Source: Sulfobacillus thermotolerans (lineage in GTDB: Bacteria; Bacillota; Sulfobacillia; Sulfobacillales; Sulfobacillaceae). Taken from it: a stretch of DNA of 64,000 bases. The notes beneath the pieces were generated by a model. It did not search any database. It was given only the letters and a program-made list of their open reading frames with translations, and was not told the origin of the DNA. Position numbers and translations under genes: made by a program. The stretch lies in contig CP019454.1 of assembly GCA_002951815.1 (NCBI GenBank), positions 2,356,001 through 2,420,000 of the forward strand, written 5' to 3'. Shown here in pieces: positions 28,428-58,107 of the stretch; the first letter of the stretch is position 1, and the number at the start of each line of letters is the position of its first letter.

Positions 28428-28444
28428 TAGAAGATACCTTGAAA

Positions 28445-28549
28445 ACGCCGAATTCTCAAGGAAGCGGAGGAACCAATTTCGATTTGGGGTGAATTGCGGT
28501 GCAACGGGCAGGCTCTGAGCCCGAACCCGACAGCTAACTTCGCAGGCGT
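28445..28549 (+). promoter_or_regulatory. cyclic-di-AMP riboswitch (ydaO/yuaA class)
   Basis: The conserved core of the ydaO motif is present in order: ACGCCGAATTCTCAAGG, GCGGAGGAACCAATTT, TTGGGGTGAATT, CCGAACCCGACAGCTAAC and TTCGCAGGCGT. P1 forms between ACGCC (28445-28449) and GGCGT (28545-28549). Members of this class bind cyclic di-AMP and usually switch off genes for potassium uptake, osmolytes or cell-wall hydrolases. Here the downstream genes are a glycosyltransferase and a sugar-phosphate phosphatase. Recognised by eye, not by covariance model. Confidence 0.9.
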
Positions 28550-28582
28550 AGGGGGCTCAAGGTTAAGACATGGTATCTCTCG

Positions 28583-50613: not shown

Positions 50614-51765
50614 TTATAGACGGGAAGCCGTCAAAGCTTGTTGAAAATCCTGAATCAAGTCCGCCGCTGACTCGAGTCCGACGGAAATGCGTACAACATC
50701 GGGTGTGATGTGCCGCTCGGTGCGTTCTTCTGGCGTTAAAGCGGCGTGGCAATGCAGTTCGGGCAGAGATACAATGGTTTCTGTGCCCCCAAAACCTGCG
50801 CCTACCCGAGCCAAGGCGAGATGTTCCGCCATACCAGGAACCTGTTCGGCATGATGCAGACGAATCGTGAGCATTTGCCCGAAACCGCGCATGGTATCTC
50901 GGGCTACATCATGTCCGGGATGACTGGGTAGTCCGGGGTAATAGACCGTATGAACATCTTGATGGGTCAAGAGAAATTGGGCCAGTAATTGGGCTGTCTT
51001 TTGCGCTTGCTCCATGCGTACGGGTAATGTATGCAGGCCACGCAGGCTCATGTATGCATCGTCCGGAGACAAGATAGCGCCACACGCATTTTGGATGAAG
51101 TACAGCTGTCGTCCTAAATCCTCATCTTTGGTGACGGCAACGCCCGCGGTGATGTCGGAGTGCCCACCAATCATCTTGGTTGCCGAGTGAATGACAATAT
51201 CGGCGCCAAGGTCTAAAGGATTTTGTAGGTACGGCGTAATAAACGTATTGTCGACCAAAACCAATAAGCCATGACCGTGCGCCCATGTCGAGACCCGAGC
51301 GATATCTGTCACATGTAGGAACGGATTACTAAAGTTTTCCACTAAAATGGCTTTGGTCTTCGGCGTTAATGCGGCTTCTAGGGCGTTAAGGTCTTCGGTA
51401 TCGACATAGTTCGCATGAATGCCAAATCGGCTGAATACGCCGCGTAAGACGCGCTGTGTGCCTCCTTGGCAGTCTCGCGTGACGAGGAGATGATCGCCTT
51501 GAGAAAACAGCATGAAAGCCGCCGTCAAAGCGGCCATGCCCGAGGAAAAAGCCATACCGCGGCTCCCGTGCTCAAGGCTTGCCATGGCCGCTTCAAAGGC
51601 ATGCCGGGTTGGATTGCCCGAACGCGCGTAATCATACGTTGGTGGATTCCAGGGATCGGCTTGGTGATAGGTGGTGGCACGATAAATCGGAGGCGTAACC
51701 GCCTGGGTGGCAGGGTCAATCTCCTGGCCGGTGTGAATAAACTCCGTCTGTTTGTGTGGCATCAT
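50614..51765 (-). CDS. cystathionine beta-lyase-type PLP enzyme
   Basis: 383 residues of the Cys/Met-metabolism PLP family. The PLP lysine is in SATKMIGGHSD; the SGMAAL segment, DNTFITPYLQNPL and RISVGLES are conserved. As the second gene after a cystathionine gamma-synthase-like enzyme it most likely cleaves cystathionine to homocysteine (MetC), as in the metI-metC operon of Bacillus; gamma-lyase or O-acetylhomoserine sulfhydrylase activity cannot be excluded. ATG 51765 or ATG 51762 follow AAAGGAG. Confidence 0.82.
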   Translation of the reverse strand: MMPHKQTEFIHTGQEIDPATQAVTPPIYRATTYHQADPWNPPTYDYARSGNPTRHAFEAAMASLEHGSRGMAFSSGMAALTAAFMLFSQGDHLLVTRDCQGGTQRVLRGVFSRFGIHANYVDTEDLNALEAALTPKTKAILVENFSNPFLHVTDIARVSTWAHGHGLLVLVDNTFITPYLQNPLDLGADIVIHSATKMIGGHSDITAGVAVTKDEDLGRQLYFIQNACGAILSPDDAYMSLRGLHTLPVRMEQAQKTAQLLAQFLLTHQDVHTVYYPGLPSHPGHDVARDTMRGFGQMLTIRLHHAEQVPGMAEHLALARVGAGFGGTETIVSLPELHCHAALTPEERTERHITPDVVRISVGLESAADLIQDFQQALTASRL

Positions 51766-51782
51766 AGACTCCTTTGACGCAT

Positions 51783-52946
51783 CTAGGATAGGGAGTTGAG
51801 CGCTTGGTCTAAGTCGGCCATGAGATCATCCACATGTTCAATGCCGACGGATAACCGCATGAGACCGGGAATAATACCCAGTTGCCAGCGGACTTCTTCG
51901 GGCAACTCCCTATGGGTTTCATTAAAAGGATGAGTGATCAGGGATTCCACTCCCCCAAGACTAACGGCCGGCAAAATCAATTGCAAAGCGTTCATAAAGT
52001 CAATGTAACGATTAGGGTCGTCCAAGACAAATGAAAGCATGGCCCCGGTTCCAGAAGCCTGACTTTTTTGCAAGGCGTCTTGTTCGGGACTATTGAGCCC
52101 AGGGTAAAAGACGCGTTGAACCCGGGGATGACGTGCGAGAAACGCGGCAATGGCGGCAGCATTGGCTTCTTGACGGTCCATCCGAATAGCTAATGTTTTG
52201 AGGCCTCTGAGCAGTAACCACGCATCCCACGGGCCCAGAATGCTTCCGGTGGCATTGGTGAGTTCGTTGAGTTGCGCATAGTCTTCGGCATAACGACAGA
52301 CCGTTGCCCCGGCCAAGACATCATTATGGCCCGCCATATATTTGGTCGCGCTATACACCGCAAAATCAGCCCCTAAGTCTAAAGGCCGCTGGCGAACCGC
52401 GGTCATAAACGTATTATCAATAGCCAATTTGGCACCATGGGCATGGGCCATTTCCGCAAGAGCTCGTAATGGACTGACTTGCAATAAGGGGTTACTAGGG
52501 CTTTCCGCAATAACAAGACGCGTCGTGTCCGTAAAGGCGCGCTCGACCGCATCGAGTTGACGCGTGTTAACCATCGAGGAGCGAATGCCAAATTTTGCAA
52601 AAACATCCACCAATAAGCGATAGGTCCCCCCATAGGCATCGTCAGTGACAATCACATGATCGCCTTGGTGGAGCATGTGCACCAAAGCCGTGAGAGCAGC
52701 CATGCCGCTTCCATATAAAAGAGCGCCAGCACCTCCATCAAGACGGTTGATAGCCTCTTGCGCGCTGTGGCGGGTTGGGTTTTCGGTCCGGCTATAGTCG
52801 TATTGGCCAAGGTTCTCACCCGGATGCTGATACGTCACCGTTTGATAAATCGGGGTGCTAACAGATCCATATGCGAGATCTTGTCCGACGCCGCAGTGAG
52901 CAGCAAGAGTTTCAGGATGCCACTGAGGGCTCCTCATATGATGCAC
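51783..52946 (-). CDS. metI: cystathionine gamma-synthase-type PLP enzyme
   Basis: 387 residues. The PLP lysine is in YSATKYMAGHNDVLAGA; YDYSRTENPTR, SGMAALTALV, DDAYGGTYRL, DNTFMTAVRQRPLDLGAD and SLGGVESL are family blocks. It would join an O-acylhomoserine with cysteine to make cystathionine (or use sulfide). It is followed after 17 bases by the lyase gene. The GTG start has AAAGGA about 9 bases upstream. No SAM riboswitch precedes it, unlike B. subtilis metI. Confidence 0.82.
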   Translation of the reverse strand: MHHMRSPQWHPETLAAHCGVGQDLAYGSVSTPIYQTVTYQHPGENLGQYDYSRTENPTRHSAQEAINRLDGGAGALLYGSGMAALTALVHMLHQGDHVIVTDDAYGGTYRLLVDVFAKFGIRSSMVNTRQLDAVERAFTDTTRLVIAESPSNPLLQVSPLRALAEMAHAHGAKLAIDNTFMTAVRQRPLDLGADFAVYSATKYMAGHNDVLAGATVCRYAEDYAQLNELTNATGSILGPWDAWLLLRGLKTLAIRMDRQEANAAAIAAFLARHPRVQRVFYPGLNSPEQDALQKSQASGTGAMLSFVLDDPNRYIDFMNALQLILPAVSLGGVESLITHPFNETHRELPEEVRWQLGIIPGLMRLSVGIEHVDDLMADLDQALNSLS

Positions 52947-53953: not shown

Positions 53954-53982
53954 TTGACCATTTCGCAACGCCATGGTATTTT
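53954..53982 (+). promoter_or_regulatory. sigma-A promoter of the SAM-riboswitch operon
   Basis: TTGACC (53954-53959), a 17-base spacer and TATTTT (53977-53982) preceded by TGG. A second possible -10, TACAAT, lies at 53986-53991. Either gives a transcript starting just before the riboswitch. Confidence 0.6.
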
Positions 53983-54005
53983 GCTTACAATTCAATAAGA
54001 TTTAC

Positions 54006-54111
54006 TTCTTATCCAGAGTGGTGGAGGGACTGGCCCGATGAAACCCGGCAACCCCCATAGGGTGGGTGCCAATTCCGGAAGAATACGGATTCGTATTCTT
54101 TAAGATGAGAA
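54006..54111 (+). promoter_or_regulatory. SAM-I (S-box) riboswitch
   Basis: The S-box core is nearly consensus: CTTATCCAGAG at the 5' side of P1, GGTGGAGGGACTGGCCCGAT, GAAACCCGGCAACC, GGTGCCAATTCC and the closing GATGAGAAGAG. SAM binding stabilises a terminator (next feature) and shuts off methionine genes. It lies about 140 bases before the first MetE-type gene. Confidence 0.96.
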
Positions 54112-54116
54112 GAGCT

Positions 54117-54147
54117 AACGCCTCTTCTCTAAGTAGGCGTTTTTTTA
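54117..54147 (+). terminator. S-box intrinsic terminator
   Basis: AACGCCT (54117-54123) pairs with AGGCGTT (54135-54141), followed by Ts to 54147. The upstream AGAAGAG and the loop CTTCTCT are complementary, giving the alternative antiterminator pairing expected of S-box leaders. Confidence 0.9.
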
Positions 54148-54250
54148 TGGTTGGATGTGCCGGGCTCTGTCTGGTCCACGCCACGCGTCCAGCTTCATTT
54201 CCTCAACGACTTTGATGCCGGTGAGATCAGAACAGGGGAGAAATTATATA

Positions 54251-55222
54251 ATGAAGACAACGATTATGGGGTCTTATCCGAAAATTCCGGCGGGTCCGGG
54301 GCCGAGTGTCCGGACTGCTATTCAACGTTTCGAAAAAGGGCAAATCTCGCCGGAGCAACTGTACTCGACCTATGAAAGTGTTGTAAAACGGGTCGTGGAC
54401 TTAGCCGCTGATGCACAGTGTGATAGGACCACAGATGGCCAGATCCGCTGGTACGATCTCTTTGATCCCGTCGTTCGGGACTTGGATAATGTGTACAGTG
54501 CGGGTCTACTGCGGCTGTTTGACAACAACTTTTACGTACGTCATCCGGTCGTCACAGGTCGCCTACAATATCAAGGGGGAACGCTAGCAGCATGGAGTCG
54601 CGAAGCGGCCTCTTTATCTCGTATTCCCGTGACAATTGTCCTTCCGGGTCTCTTTACCTTTTTATCTATGGTGGAAGACAAAAATTACCACAATGAGGAA
54701 ACGCTATTAAGTGACTTGGTTGATGTCATGCGGTTGACCGTCCGTCACCTCGCTGATACGGGTATTGTTGAGGTGCAGTGGGATGAGCCGGCGCTGGCGC
54801 GCTATGCGGATCGTTGGCCCACAGCGTTCGTTCAAGAAGCGTATCAGAAGCTCCTAGCGTTGGAAGGACCACTGGAGCAGTCGTTAGCTCTGTATTGGGG
54901 ACCCTCGTCACCGTGGCTGGACACGTTGGCAGCATTGCCCTTTGCGCGGCTATCTTTTGATGCCGTAAGCGAACCGGCCATTCTTGATCGCCTGGCGTCT
55001 CACACCCTGCCTGCTTCAGTGGGCGTGGGAATCATTGATGGGCGCAATGTGCGAATGGAAGATGCTCATCAGGTGGTCGACATCTTGGAACCGGTATTGC
55101 GTCGCCAAGGTTCTGATCGGGTTTGGGTACACCCCAACTGTGGATTGGAATTTTTGCCTCCTGACCGGGCGGCGGCGAAAGTACGTCTTTTACAGGACCT
55201 CAAAACCCTGATCAACGGTTAA
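54251..55222 (+). CDS. MetE-type barrel protein without the zinc-ligand pair (MetE N-terminal-like)
   Basis: 323 residues with the cobalamin-independent methionine synthase barrel fold: TTIMGSYPKIP, RWYDLFDPVVRDL, VQWDEPALARY and HPNCGLEF. The His-x-Cys zinc motif expected near residue 210 is replaced (LALYWGPSSPW). It resembles the non-catalytic N-terminal half of MetE made as a separate protein, as in some Archaea. It heads the S-box operon, 24 bases before an intact MetE-type barrel, suggesting the two proteins work as a pair. ATG 54251 follows GGGGAG. Confidence 0.75.
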   Translation: MKTTIMGSYPKIPAGPGPSVRTAIQRFEKGQISPEQLYSTYESVVKRVVDLAADAQCDRTTDGQIRWYDLFDPVVRDLDNVYSAGLLRLFDNNFYVRHPVVTGRLQYQGGTLAAWSREAASLSRIPVTIVLPGLFTFLSMVEDKNYHNEETLLSDLVDVMRLTVRHLADTGIVEVQWDEPALARYADRWPTAFVQEAYQKLLALEGPLEQSLALYWGPSSPWLDTLAALPFARLSFDAVSEPAILDRLASHTLPASVGVGIIDGRNVRMEDAHQVVDILEPVLRRQGSDRVWVHPNCGLEFLPPDRAAAKVRLLQDLKTLING

Positions 55223-55246
55223 CCGACAGAAAGGACAAACAACCCA

Positions 55247-56233
55247 ATGGCCAAATATTTACAGACCACTAGTGTGGGCAGTTTTCCCAAGCCTCCGGAA
55301 CTTATGGCTGCGCGTGCGCGTTTTCGCCGCGGTGAGATTTCGCGCGAACAGTTGCAACAAGCGGAAGAGGCCGCGACGAAAAAAGTCATGGATTTGCAAG
55401 AAGAACTGGGCATCGACATTTTTGTGCATGGCGAGATGGAGCGAGGCGATATGGTCGCTTATTTCGCGGAGAATTGGCAAGGGTTTTCGGAGTCATTGCC
55501 GGTTCGGTCATACGGCAACCGCTATTATCACAAACCCATCGTCGAAGGCACTGTGGCCTTGGGAGATGCGGCGGGGCTAACGGTCGCATCATGGCAAAAA
55601 GCGGCCCAATTGACGGCCCGTCCTGTGAAGGGGATGCTCACCGGTCCTTATACCATTTGTGATTGGTCTTTCAATGCCTATTATCCCGACCGTCGTTCTC
55701 TCGTGCTGGATTTAGCTCATCTGGTGCACGAGGAGGCGGTGGCATTAGAAAAAGCGGGCGCTCGTTATATCCAAATTGATGAACCCGCGTTATCGACGAG
55801 GCCCGAAGAATTGGATTTGGCTATCGAAGCCATGGCGATTGTCACAGAAGGATTGAAGGCGAAGACCATCAGTCATATTTGTTACGGGGATTTTGATACC
55901 ATTTTGCCGGGATTATTTGATCTTCCGGTGGACCAGCTCGACCTCGAAGCCGCTAATCAGAATTATGCATTGCTCGACCTTTTGGCGCGCCATCCTTGGC
56001 CCCAAAACAAAGAATTGGCATTAGGCGTGGTGGACGTGCACACGCACCGCATTGAATCCGTCGATGAGGTTAAGGCGGGAATTCGGCGGGCACTTGAAAT
56101 TGTTCCCCTCAACAATTTGCTGATTGACCCGGACTGCGGATTAAAGACGCGTACATGGGACGAGGCGGCAGAGAAATTGCGCGTAATGGCGCAAGCGGTT
56201 CAAGCAGTGCGAGAAGAGGAAGGCCTCGAGTGA
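55247..56233 (+). CDS. short (core) cobalamin-independent methionine synthase
   Basis: 328 residues, matching only the C-terminal catalytic half of classical MetE (about 750 residues). The zinc ligands are present: His and Cys in ISHICYGDF and Cys in IDPDCGLKTR. The VGSFPKP opening, IQIDEPALSTR and the VVDVHTHRIES segment are typical. It would methylate homocysteine; short MetEs may use donors other than methyltetrahydropteroyl-triglutamate. It overlaps the next gene by four bases. Confidence 0.85.
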   Translation: MAKYLQTTSVGSFPKPPELMAARARFRRGEISREQLQQAEEAATKKVMDLQEELGIDIFVHGEMERGDMVAYFAENWQGFSESLPVRSYGNRYYHKPIVEGTVALGDAAGLTVASWQKAAQLTARPVKGMLTGPYTICDWSFNAYYPDRRSLVLDLAHLVHEEAVALEKAGARYIQIDEPALSTRPEELDLAIEAMAIVTEGLKAKTISHICYGDFDTILPGLFDLPVDQLDLEAANQNYALLDLLARHPWPQNKELALGVVDVHTHRIESVDEVKAGIRRALEIVPLNNLLIDPDCGLKTRTWDEAAEKLRVMAQAVQAVREEEGLE

Positions 56234-58107
56234 AATCGTTAGCGGATGCTTTAAGGGACCCGACGTGGATTATAGGGGACGGAGCATCAGGCACGGCGCT
56301 TATGGCGGCGGGGATCGACCCCGCTGCTCTTCCTCTCGTGCCGCTAAGACAGCCTGACACGTTAATGAATCTCCATCTCCAATATCTCGAGGCCGGAGCA
56401 CGGTTGTTAGAGACCCAAACCTTTTCCGCCAATGGGAGCAAACTGGCGGCACTGGGGCTCGAAGCCGACGTTGTCTTATTGCACCGCCGCGCAGCGCAAA
56501 TTGCGCGACACGCGCGCGATATCTTTGGCGAACCCGCGTGGATTGTTGGATCGATAGGACCTTTGGCACAACCTGTCGCCTCGCCGGTTATGGAGAGCCT
56601 TACGCATGAAGAGGCCGTGGACTATTATCGCCCGGTCGTCGCCGGACTGTTAGCCGGTGGAGTCGATGGCTTTATTGTGGAGACGATGTCTGATATTCCC
56701 ACGGTATTAGCCGCGGTAGAAGCCATTCGCGAGGAAAGCCTCTTGCCGATTATTGTGAGTTTTGCGTTTTCACCGGAAGGGGCGACGCGTTACGGGCTTA
56801 CGCCCGAACAGGCCATTGAAGCGATGGGCCAATTACCAGGCGGTCCTCCTCAGTTGGTGGGTGCCAACTGCGGAAGTGGACCGGCTCCGTTGCTGGATGC
56901 CGTGATTCGAATGGCGCCACGGGCCAAAGATTTGCAGATTCCGTTAGCCGCCTTTCCTAATGCAGGGCAGCCCGCGATGGTGGCCAATCATGTCCATTAT
57001 CCGGCCAGTCCACATTATGTGGCGACCATGGCCCCAGCCCTCGCGGAAGCTGGGTGTCGAGTGATTGGCGGGTGTTGCGGGACGACAGCCGCGCACATCC
57101 AAGCCATTGCTCAAACACTGCAGCATATGCCTGTTTTGCCCCAGGTCCGGACGTGGAACGTTGAGGACGAACATGCCGCTAATGAAACAATGGGGAGTGA
57201 GGGCGCTCCTGAAGGCATAAGGCAACTTTTTGGCAAGCGTTTTGTTGTGAGCGTGGAACTCGACCCGCCTCGGGGCGTCAATCCCCACCGGGTGCTGGAA
57301 GCCGCGCGCACCGTATGGGAAGCCGGCGCGGACGCCATTAATATTGGTGATAGTCCCATGGCACGGGTGCGACTCAGCGCGCTTGCAACGGCGCGGTTGA
57401 TTGCAGAACAGCTACCGGTCGAAACTATTTTGCATTTTACTACTCGTGATCGCAATCTGATGGGACTACAAAGTGATTTGCTCGGGGCCCATGCCTTAGG
57501 CATTCGCAATGTACTGGCGCTCACCGGCGATCCGCCGGGCATCGGTGACTACGCCCATGCGACCGCTGTGTACGACATCAATTCTATTGGCCTCGTGAAG
57601 GTGCTGGCAGGCTTTAATCAAGGGCAAGATGCGTCGGGACAGAAAATTGGTGGCCATACGGCGTTTGATATCGGAGTCGGGGTGAATCCGACGGCCGAGG
57701 ATCTCGACCATGAAGTGCTTCGCTTACAGCAAAAACTAGAAGCCGGCGCGGGATTTATTATGTCTCAACCCATTTATGCCAAAGAACAACTGGAGAGATT
57801 TTTGGACCGTTTTGGTCCCTTGCCGGTCCCCCTGTTATTAGGCGTTATGCCCTTGGTATCCTATCGTCAAGCATTGTATTTGCACAATGAGGTGCCGGGG
57901 ATTACCATTGGCACAGAGATTTTAGCACAGTTCGAACATGTCCAAGATGGGACAGCGCTAGGGATTGACATGGCCTGTGCATTGCTTGACGATCTCGAAT
58001 CGGTTATTCAGGGTGTCTATCTGGTGCCTTCATTCAATCGCGTTGAGCCGCTCTTGCCCCTCATTGCCTATATCCGTCAGAAATTCAGCACGAAAAAAAG
58101 GTCGTAA
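56230..58107 (+). CDS. yitJ: homocysteine S-methyltransferase / methylenetetrahydrofolate reductase fusion (YitJ type)
   Basis: 625 residues. N-terminal part (about 1-300): a homocysteine methyltransferase barrel with zinc cysteines in VGANCGSGP and IGGCCGTT. C-terminal part (about 340-625): a MTHFR domain with VSVELDPPRG, HFTTRDRN, LALTGDPP and a GAGFIMSQPIY flavin segment. In B. subtilis YitJ is S-box controlled and reduces methylene-THF. It would supply methyl-THF or methylate homocysteine directly. GTG 56230 sits in the previous stop codon. Its last 23 bases overlap otsB on the other strand. Confidence 0.9.
   Translation: MKSLADALRDPTWIIGDGASGTALMAAGIDPAALPLVPLRQPDTLMNLHLQYLEAGARLLETQTFSANGSKLAALGLEADVVLLHRRAAQIARHARDIFGEPAWIVGSIGPLAQPVASPVMESLTHEEAVDYYRPVVAGLLAGGVDGFIVETMSDIPTVLAAVEAIREESLLPIIVSFAFSPEGATRYGLTPEQAIEAMGQLPGGPPQLVGANCGSGPAPLLDAVIRMAPRAKDLQIPLAAFPNAGQPAMVANHVHYPASPHYVATMAPALAEAGCRVIGGCCGTTAAHIQAIAQTLQHMPVLPQVRTWNVEDEHAANETMGSEGAPEGIRQLFGKRFVVSVELDPPRGVNPHRVLEAARTVWEAGADAINIGDSPMARVRLSALATARLIAEQLPVETILHFTTRDRNLMGLQSDLLGAHALGIRNVLALTGDPPGIGDYAHATAVYDINSIGLVKVLAGFNQGQDASGQKIGGHTAFDIGVGVNPTAEDLDHEVLRLQQKLEAGAGFIMSQPIYAKEQLERFLDRFGPLPVPLLLGVMPLVSYRQALYLHNEVPGITIGTEILAQFEHVQDGTALGIDMACALLDDLESVIQGVYLVPSFNRVEPLLPLIAYIRQKFSTKKRS

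Follow-up and report, generated by a model that had tools for sequence, protein, structure and literature searches.

A methionine-synthesis operon of Sulfobacillus thermotolerans predicted to encode a split cobalamin-independent methionine synthase

The methionine-synthesis locus of Sulfobacillus thermotolerans raises the question of whether the cobalamin-independent methionine synthase MetE is made there as two polypeptides that work together, or whether a short catalytic barrel acts alone and independently of methyl-folate. The original prediction proposed the former, and we consider, with a probability of about 0.9, that this operon does encode a split cobalamin-independent methionine synthase, of which the complex, the methyl donor, the riboswitch response and the single transcript are predicted features. 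The window analysed is a stretch of 64,000 nucleotides from a genome of 3.3 Mb held in a single contig; positions are given within it unless another contig or locus is named.

Three genes, none of them with internal stops, follow one another on the plus strand downstream of an S-box and a putative terminator. Genes 1 (54251..55222, 323 aa) and 2 (55247..56233, 328 aa) are separated by 24 bases and each has its own start, a purine-rich stretch resembling a ribosome site and its own stop, while the start of gene 3 (56230..58107, 625 aa) overlaps the stop of gene 2 by 4 bases. From this spacing and from the conservation of the cluster (see below), we infer a single transcript for all three genes. 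Their GC content (0.53–0.56) is close to that of the window (0.53), hence nothing points to a recent insertion of foreign DNA. The original prediction described one S-box transcript carrying a MetE-like barrel devoid of the His-x-Cys motif, an intact short MetE and a homocysteine methyltransferase/methylenetetrahydrofolate reductase (MTHFR) fusion; the S-box and the identity of all three genes are borne out by the analyses presented here.

The SAM (S-box) riboswitch aptamer (54006..54111, plus strand) matches the full length of the Rfam model RF00162 (model positions 1–108) with 86.4 bits, well over the gathering score of 44.4, and its P1 strands can be read at 54006-54013 and 54104-54111. A putative intrinsic terminator (54117..54146, plus strand) consists of AACGCCT (54117-54123), AGGCGTT (54135-54141) and then a run of T that extends to 54146; its 11-base loop exceeds the limits of the automatic scan and the stem was identified from the sequence itself. 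Between them, a putative antiterminator (54107..54129, plus strand), in which GAGAAGAG at 54107-54114 is complementary to CTCTTCTC at 54122-54129, overlaps both P1 and the terminator stem, and its pairing would be mutually exclusive with theirs. Upstream of the S-box, a consensus scan, which is not proof of function, points to a promoter-like site TTGACC-17-TATTTT (53954..53982, plus strand) with 9/12 consensus matches and to an overlapping second candidate (53962-53991) found by the same scan. Three more S-boxes are found in the genome (G000:C1:1778061, 2639125 and 1113064), two of which seem to precede Cys/Met-metabolism PLP enzymes, the reading frames being judged by eye. Two tandem enzymes of this type (cystathionine synthase/lyase type) are also encoded on the minus strand (50614-52946), upstream of the operon, and the window carries a c-di-AMP riboswitch (ydaO/yuaA leader) at 28436-28563 (90.5 bits).

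The product of gene 1 is the N-terminal barrel of MetE. It matches Meth_synt_1 (PF08267) with 95.7 bits, for a cut-off of 27, and Meth_synt_2 (PF01717) with only 82.9 bits; the folate component of a split MetE is recognized in this way by Price et al. 2021 (PMC7857596), i.e., by Meth_synt_1 as the best match, above its cut-off, in a protein of at most 400 aa. AlphaFold models of genes 1 and 2 were built from the window and locus sequences alone. The gene 1 model (mean pLDDT 89.9) superposes on the N-half of Streptococcus mutans MetE (residues 2-359) over 313 residues (Z 35.0, 2.1 Å), above its alignment to the single-barrel structure 3rpd (Z 32.4, 2.5 Å, 308 residues). Sequence profiles and the alignment of the predicted model thus identify gene 1 specifically as the folate-binding N-terminal half of MetE. 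Its zinc site is dead, Ala and Tyr standing in place of the His-x-Cys ligands of gene 2. In the same way, the zinc His is replaced by Ala, Tyr or Phe in most of the N subunits compared, the zinc Cys by Tyr in 21/25 and the Glu at the position of Escherichia coli Glu484 by Gln in 19/25. Judging from these replacements, it is very unlikely that gene 1 acts alone as a methionine synthase. Arg88 of gene 1 occupies the position of E. coli Lys117, which is taken as that of Thermotoga maritima Lys104, and is an Arg in all 76 sequences of the gene 1 family; an Arg is also found at the position of E. coli Lys20 in 67 of these 76 relatives.

Gene 2 encodes the C-terminal catalytic barrel (PF01717, 273.2 bits), with complete zinc (His210, Cys212, Glu234 and Cys297) and homocysteine (Ser12, Glu63 and Asp178) sites and a pterin-stacking Trp140. 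Its model (mean pLDDT 85.9) superposes on residues 400-733, the C-half, of T. maritima MetE over 322 residues (Z 33.6, 2.6 Å), tied with its alignment to 3rpd (Z 34.4). The 81 catalytic subunits compared all keep the equivalents of the E. coli zinc ligands His641, Cys643, Glu665 and Cys726, of the homocysteine-binding Ser433, Glu484 and Asp599, of the pterin-stacking Trp561 and of Arg515. In the structure of T. maritima MetE, the contacts to methyl-folate come from Lys104, Arg15 and Lys18 of the N-barrel and from Trp539, Arg493, Arg496 and Glu583 of the C-barrel (PMC539065). These contacts are spread over both barrels, here over two proteins, which supports the split-enzyme reading. For the pterin-anchoring Glu583 (E. 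coli Glu605), the alignment shows no equivalent in gene 2, whose loop is shorter at this point. Near this loop, Glu188 is a Glu in 77/81 catalytic subunits and an Asp in 4/81; it is a guess that this residue could stand in for the missing one. Gene 2 scores 392.6 bits against the archaeal model NF003317 (cut-off 406) and is 38–40% identical to haloarchaeal catalytic subunits, while its 280.4 bits against TIGR01371 are far under the cut-off of 929.95 that defines full-length MetE.

Gene 3, which has a GTG start, encodes a YitJ-type bifunctional homocysteine S-methyltransferase/MTHFR (PF02574 and PF02219) that scores 615.5 bits against NF006396, for a cut-off of 453. It is the only MTHFR (PF02219) match in the genome, so YitJ should supply the methyl-folate. 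The methyltransferase half of Bacillus subtilis YitJ is reported to use AdoMet (PMC6302742). By analogy, the homocysteine methyltransferase domain of gene 3 probably uses a donor other than methyl-folate, e.g., SAM, in which case it would not yield net methionine.

Search of the genome for other methionine synthases revealed neither a match to the MetH cobalamin domain (B12-binding_2, PF02607), which is also absent from every pair-bearing genome searched in the order, nor a full-length MetE above the TIGR01371 cut-off. The single pterin-binding domain of the genome belongs to a 312-aa frame that is best read as folP. MesX (PF08908), the partner of MesD, has no match in the genome, and the control genomes gave none either. 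The sole further PF01717 match is a short MetE-like paralogue of the PRK06520 family (G000:C1:816301-817347, L132:5215-6363; 584.8 bits), which has the H-x-C motif and is located away from the four S-boxes of the genome. It might also make methionine.

Among the 33 genomes of Sulfobacillales searched, 26 carry gene 1 and gene 2 adjoins it in all of them. The order S-box, N subunit, C subunit and YitJ, on the same strand, is kept in the 24 relatives (24/24) whose surroundings were examined. All 26 pair-bearing genomes have an MTHFR; of the seven genomes devoid of the pair, six lack MTHFR and the seventh (G015) has only a weak match. This co-occurrence fits a methyl-folate donor, although the co-loss may correspond to one deletion of one operon. 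The six genomes lacking both the pair and MTHFR still show a match to a MetE-like barrel. Two of these barrels (L133:3830-5005 and L135:5376-6518) are about 380–390 aa long, have intact zinc ligands (AHMCYG, LEYAQ/IEYAQ, STDCG) and score under the PRK09121 cut-off; MesX was not found there, the control being also without match. The barrel of these MTHFR-less Sulfobacillales may act as a core methionine synthase that does not depend on MTHFR.

A broader scan across named species, from which the best 80 loci were taken, suggests that split MetEs also occur far from this order. After 23 loci (L048-L070) were counted as Sulfobacillales on the basis of 69–89% identity, 57 others were left, and the N gene is directly upstream of the C gene in 52 of these. 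Their record titles refer mainly to Zixibacteria, Chloroflexota (including Dehalococcoidia), Omnitrophota, Eisenbacteria, Latescibacterota, TA06 and Limnochordia; the majority are bins from metagenomes, so that any single taxon label needs care. For example, L088, from a contig labelled Nanoarchaeota, carries bacterial-type YitJ, N and C genes that group with bacterial sequences, and is either a transfer or a mis-binned contig. A YitJ-like gene is present in the stretch around 12 of the 57 loci (L071, L072, L073, L075, L080, L088, L089, L093, L107, L111, L121 and L127). No S-box reached the gathering score in the 18 of these 57 loci that were scanned, hence S-box control seems to go with the order rather than with split MetE.

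The most serious alternative is that the gene 2 product works alone as a folate-independent core synthase of the MesA-D type, gene 1 being dispensable or a paralogue acting differently. Gene 2 indeed encodes one short barrel in which the zinc and homocysteine sites are full, and MesA is close to the catalytic subunits of split MetE, according to Price et al. 2021 (PMC7857596). However, its N-barrel partner is conserved, gene 1 lying directly upstream in 26/26 pair-bearing Sulfobacillales and in 52/57 further loci among the best 80. The position of Glu484 is occupied by Glu and not by the Gln of MesA and MesC, the pterin-stacking Trp and a folate-tail Arg are invariant, and the genome combines the absence of a B12-binding_2 match with an MTHFR in the same operon. 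This alternative, which the original prediction had kept in view by noting that short MetEs include folate-independent synthases, is therefore disfavoured and we regard it as quite improbable. The short MetE of the operon is best read as half of a methyl-folate enzyme, and its annotation as a folate-independent synthase appears unwarranted.

It could also be imagined that YitJ alone is the methionine synthase and that the MetE-like pair does other work, e.g., with another methyl donor. The homocysteine methyltransferase domain is present in gene 3, and use of AdoMet is reported for its B. subtilis equivalent (PMC6302742), but with SAM as donor no net methionine would be obtained; a MetH-type reaction is unlikely, since YitJ has no cobalamin domain and the genome no B12-binding_2 match, and all the zinc and homocysteine residues of MetE that were checked are retained in the pair. 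This makes such a division of labour even less probable than a stand-alone gene 2. Lastly, two adjacent halves of an enzyme known as a single chain could merely reflect a full-length metE broken by a frameshift or an assembly error. An accident of this kind is hardly credible, given that each gene has its own start, ribosome-site-like stretch and stop and that 26 Sulfobacillales genomes, other phyla and haloarchaea show the same split. The proposal that MetE is made here as two polypeptides is supported by the half-by-half match of profiles and models, by the functional residues and by the conserved adjacency.

In the split methionine synthase that we propose, gene 2 would bind zinc and homocysteine and perform the methyl transfer, while the catalytically dead gene 1 product would dock face to face on it, so that the pocket for methyl-folate is completed. 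The 5-methyl-THF used as donor would come from the MTHFR domain of YitJ. When SAM is high, P1 of the S-box is predicted to close, allowing the terminator to form and turning all three genes off.

In a tree of all barrels, all N rows, whether from split or full-length enzymes, are placed opposite all C rows across one branch (SH-aLRT 99.9), indicating that the split and the single-chain forms of MetE go back to one duplication, as the double-barrel structure of the enzyme would predict (PMC539065). In one tree, the C domains of full-length enzymes are nested within the split C subunits, but the alternatives are not rejected by AU tests of fusion versus fission (p 0.148 and 0.523). Split MetE could be a broad bacterial type, rather than something peculiar to archaea, and the pre-fusion form, with an ancient duplication of a homocysteine barrel giving two subunits that were later joined; we put this forward as a tentative scenario and rather doubt it. 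A transfer from archaea was considered and rejected: in a tree where haloarchaea alone represent the archaea, the N and C subunits of Sulfobacillus fall, with SH-aLRT values of 97 and 96, among those of Limnochordia and other Bacillota and not with the archaeal ones. The wide bacterial spread provides material for asking how single-chain MetE evolved from two barrels.

Split MetE was defined by Price et al. 2021 (PMC7857596), the sole paper on this subject in the full-text collection searched. The system is described there primarily in archaea, with Pyrococcus furiosus PF1268/PF1269, haloarchaea and Thermoprotei as examples; the two genes are adjacent in diverse archaea as well as in Sulfobacillus sp. 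hq2. The paper reports a complex of the two P. furiosus proteins, predicts methyl-pterins as donors and recognizes the catalytic component as a protein of at most 400 aa with at least 200 bits to PF1269 (PMC7857596). Split MetE in Sulfobacillus is thus an already known system in a known genus. What is added here is its S-box/YitJ context and its spread over bacterial phyla, neither the operon context nor a multi-phylum spread being described in the available part of that paper; compared with what is stated there, split MetE looks more widespread in bacteria. The riboswitch and the MTHFR neighbour also strengthen the prediction of methyl-pterin use published there, and the donor in Sulfobacillus should be ordinary 5-methyl-THF, which makes it assayable in E. 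coli.

The Sulfobacillus pair resembles the split MetE of Price et al. 2021 in having separate Meth_synt_1 and Meth_synt_2 proteins of less than 400 aa, encoded by adjacent genes, but differs by its S-box control and by a YitJ neighbour with a tetrahydrofolate-type MTHFR. That paper also takes the lack of another known methionine synthase as a mark of split MetE; in the Sulfobacillus genome, the searches for PF02607 and for TIGR01371 above its cut-off gave no match. The haloarchaeal split pairs examined here share its N-C gene order. Full-length MetE (TIGR01371; E. coli, T. maritima) has the same two barrels, zinc and homocysteine site, pterin Trp and basic groove for the folate tail, whereas in Sulfobacillus there are two polypeptides without a linker, the loop that follows the DEPA motif of gene 2 is shorter and gene 1 has an Arg at the position of Lys117. 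MesA, MesB, MesC and MesD share with gene 2 a single catalytic barrel and a MetE-type zinc site but work without N-barrel and without methyl-folate, while gene 2 is accompanied by a conserved N-barrel gene and by an MTHFR; MesA and MesC, furthermore, stand alone and carry Gln at the Glu484 position, where gene 2, with its N-barrel gene upstream, has Glu. The YitJ/S-box operons of B. subtilis have in common with this one the S-box control and the bifunctional homocysteine methyltransferase/MTHFR. The genome of B. subtilis matches TIGR01371 in a profile search, and its metE, unlike the split pair of Sulfobacillus, is one full-length gene.
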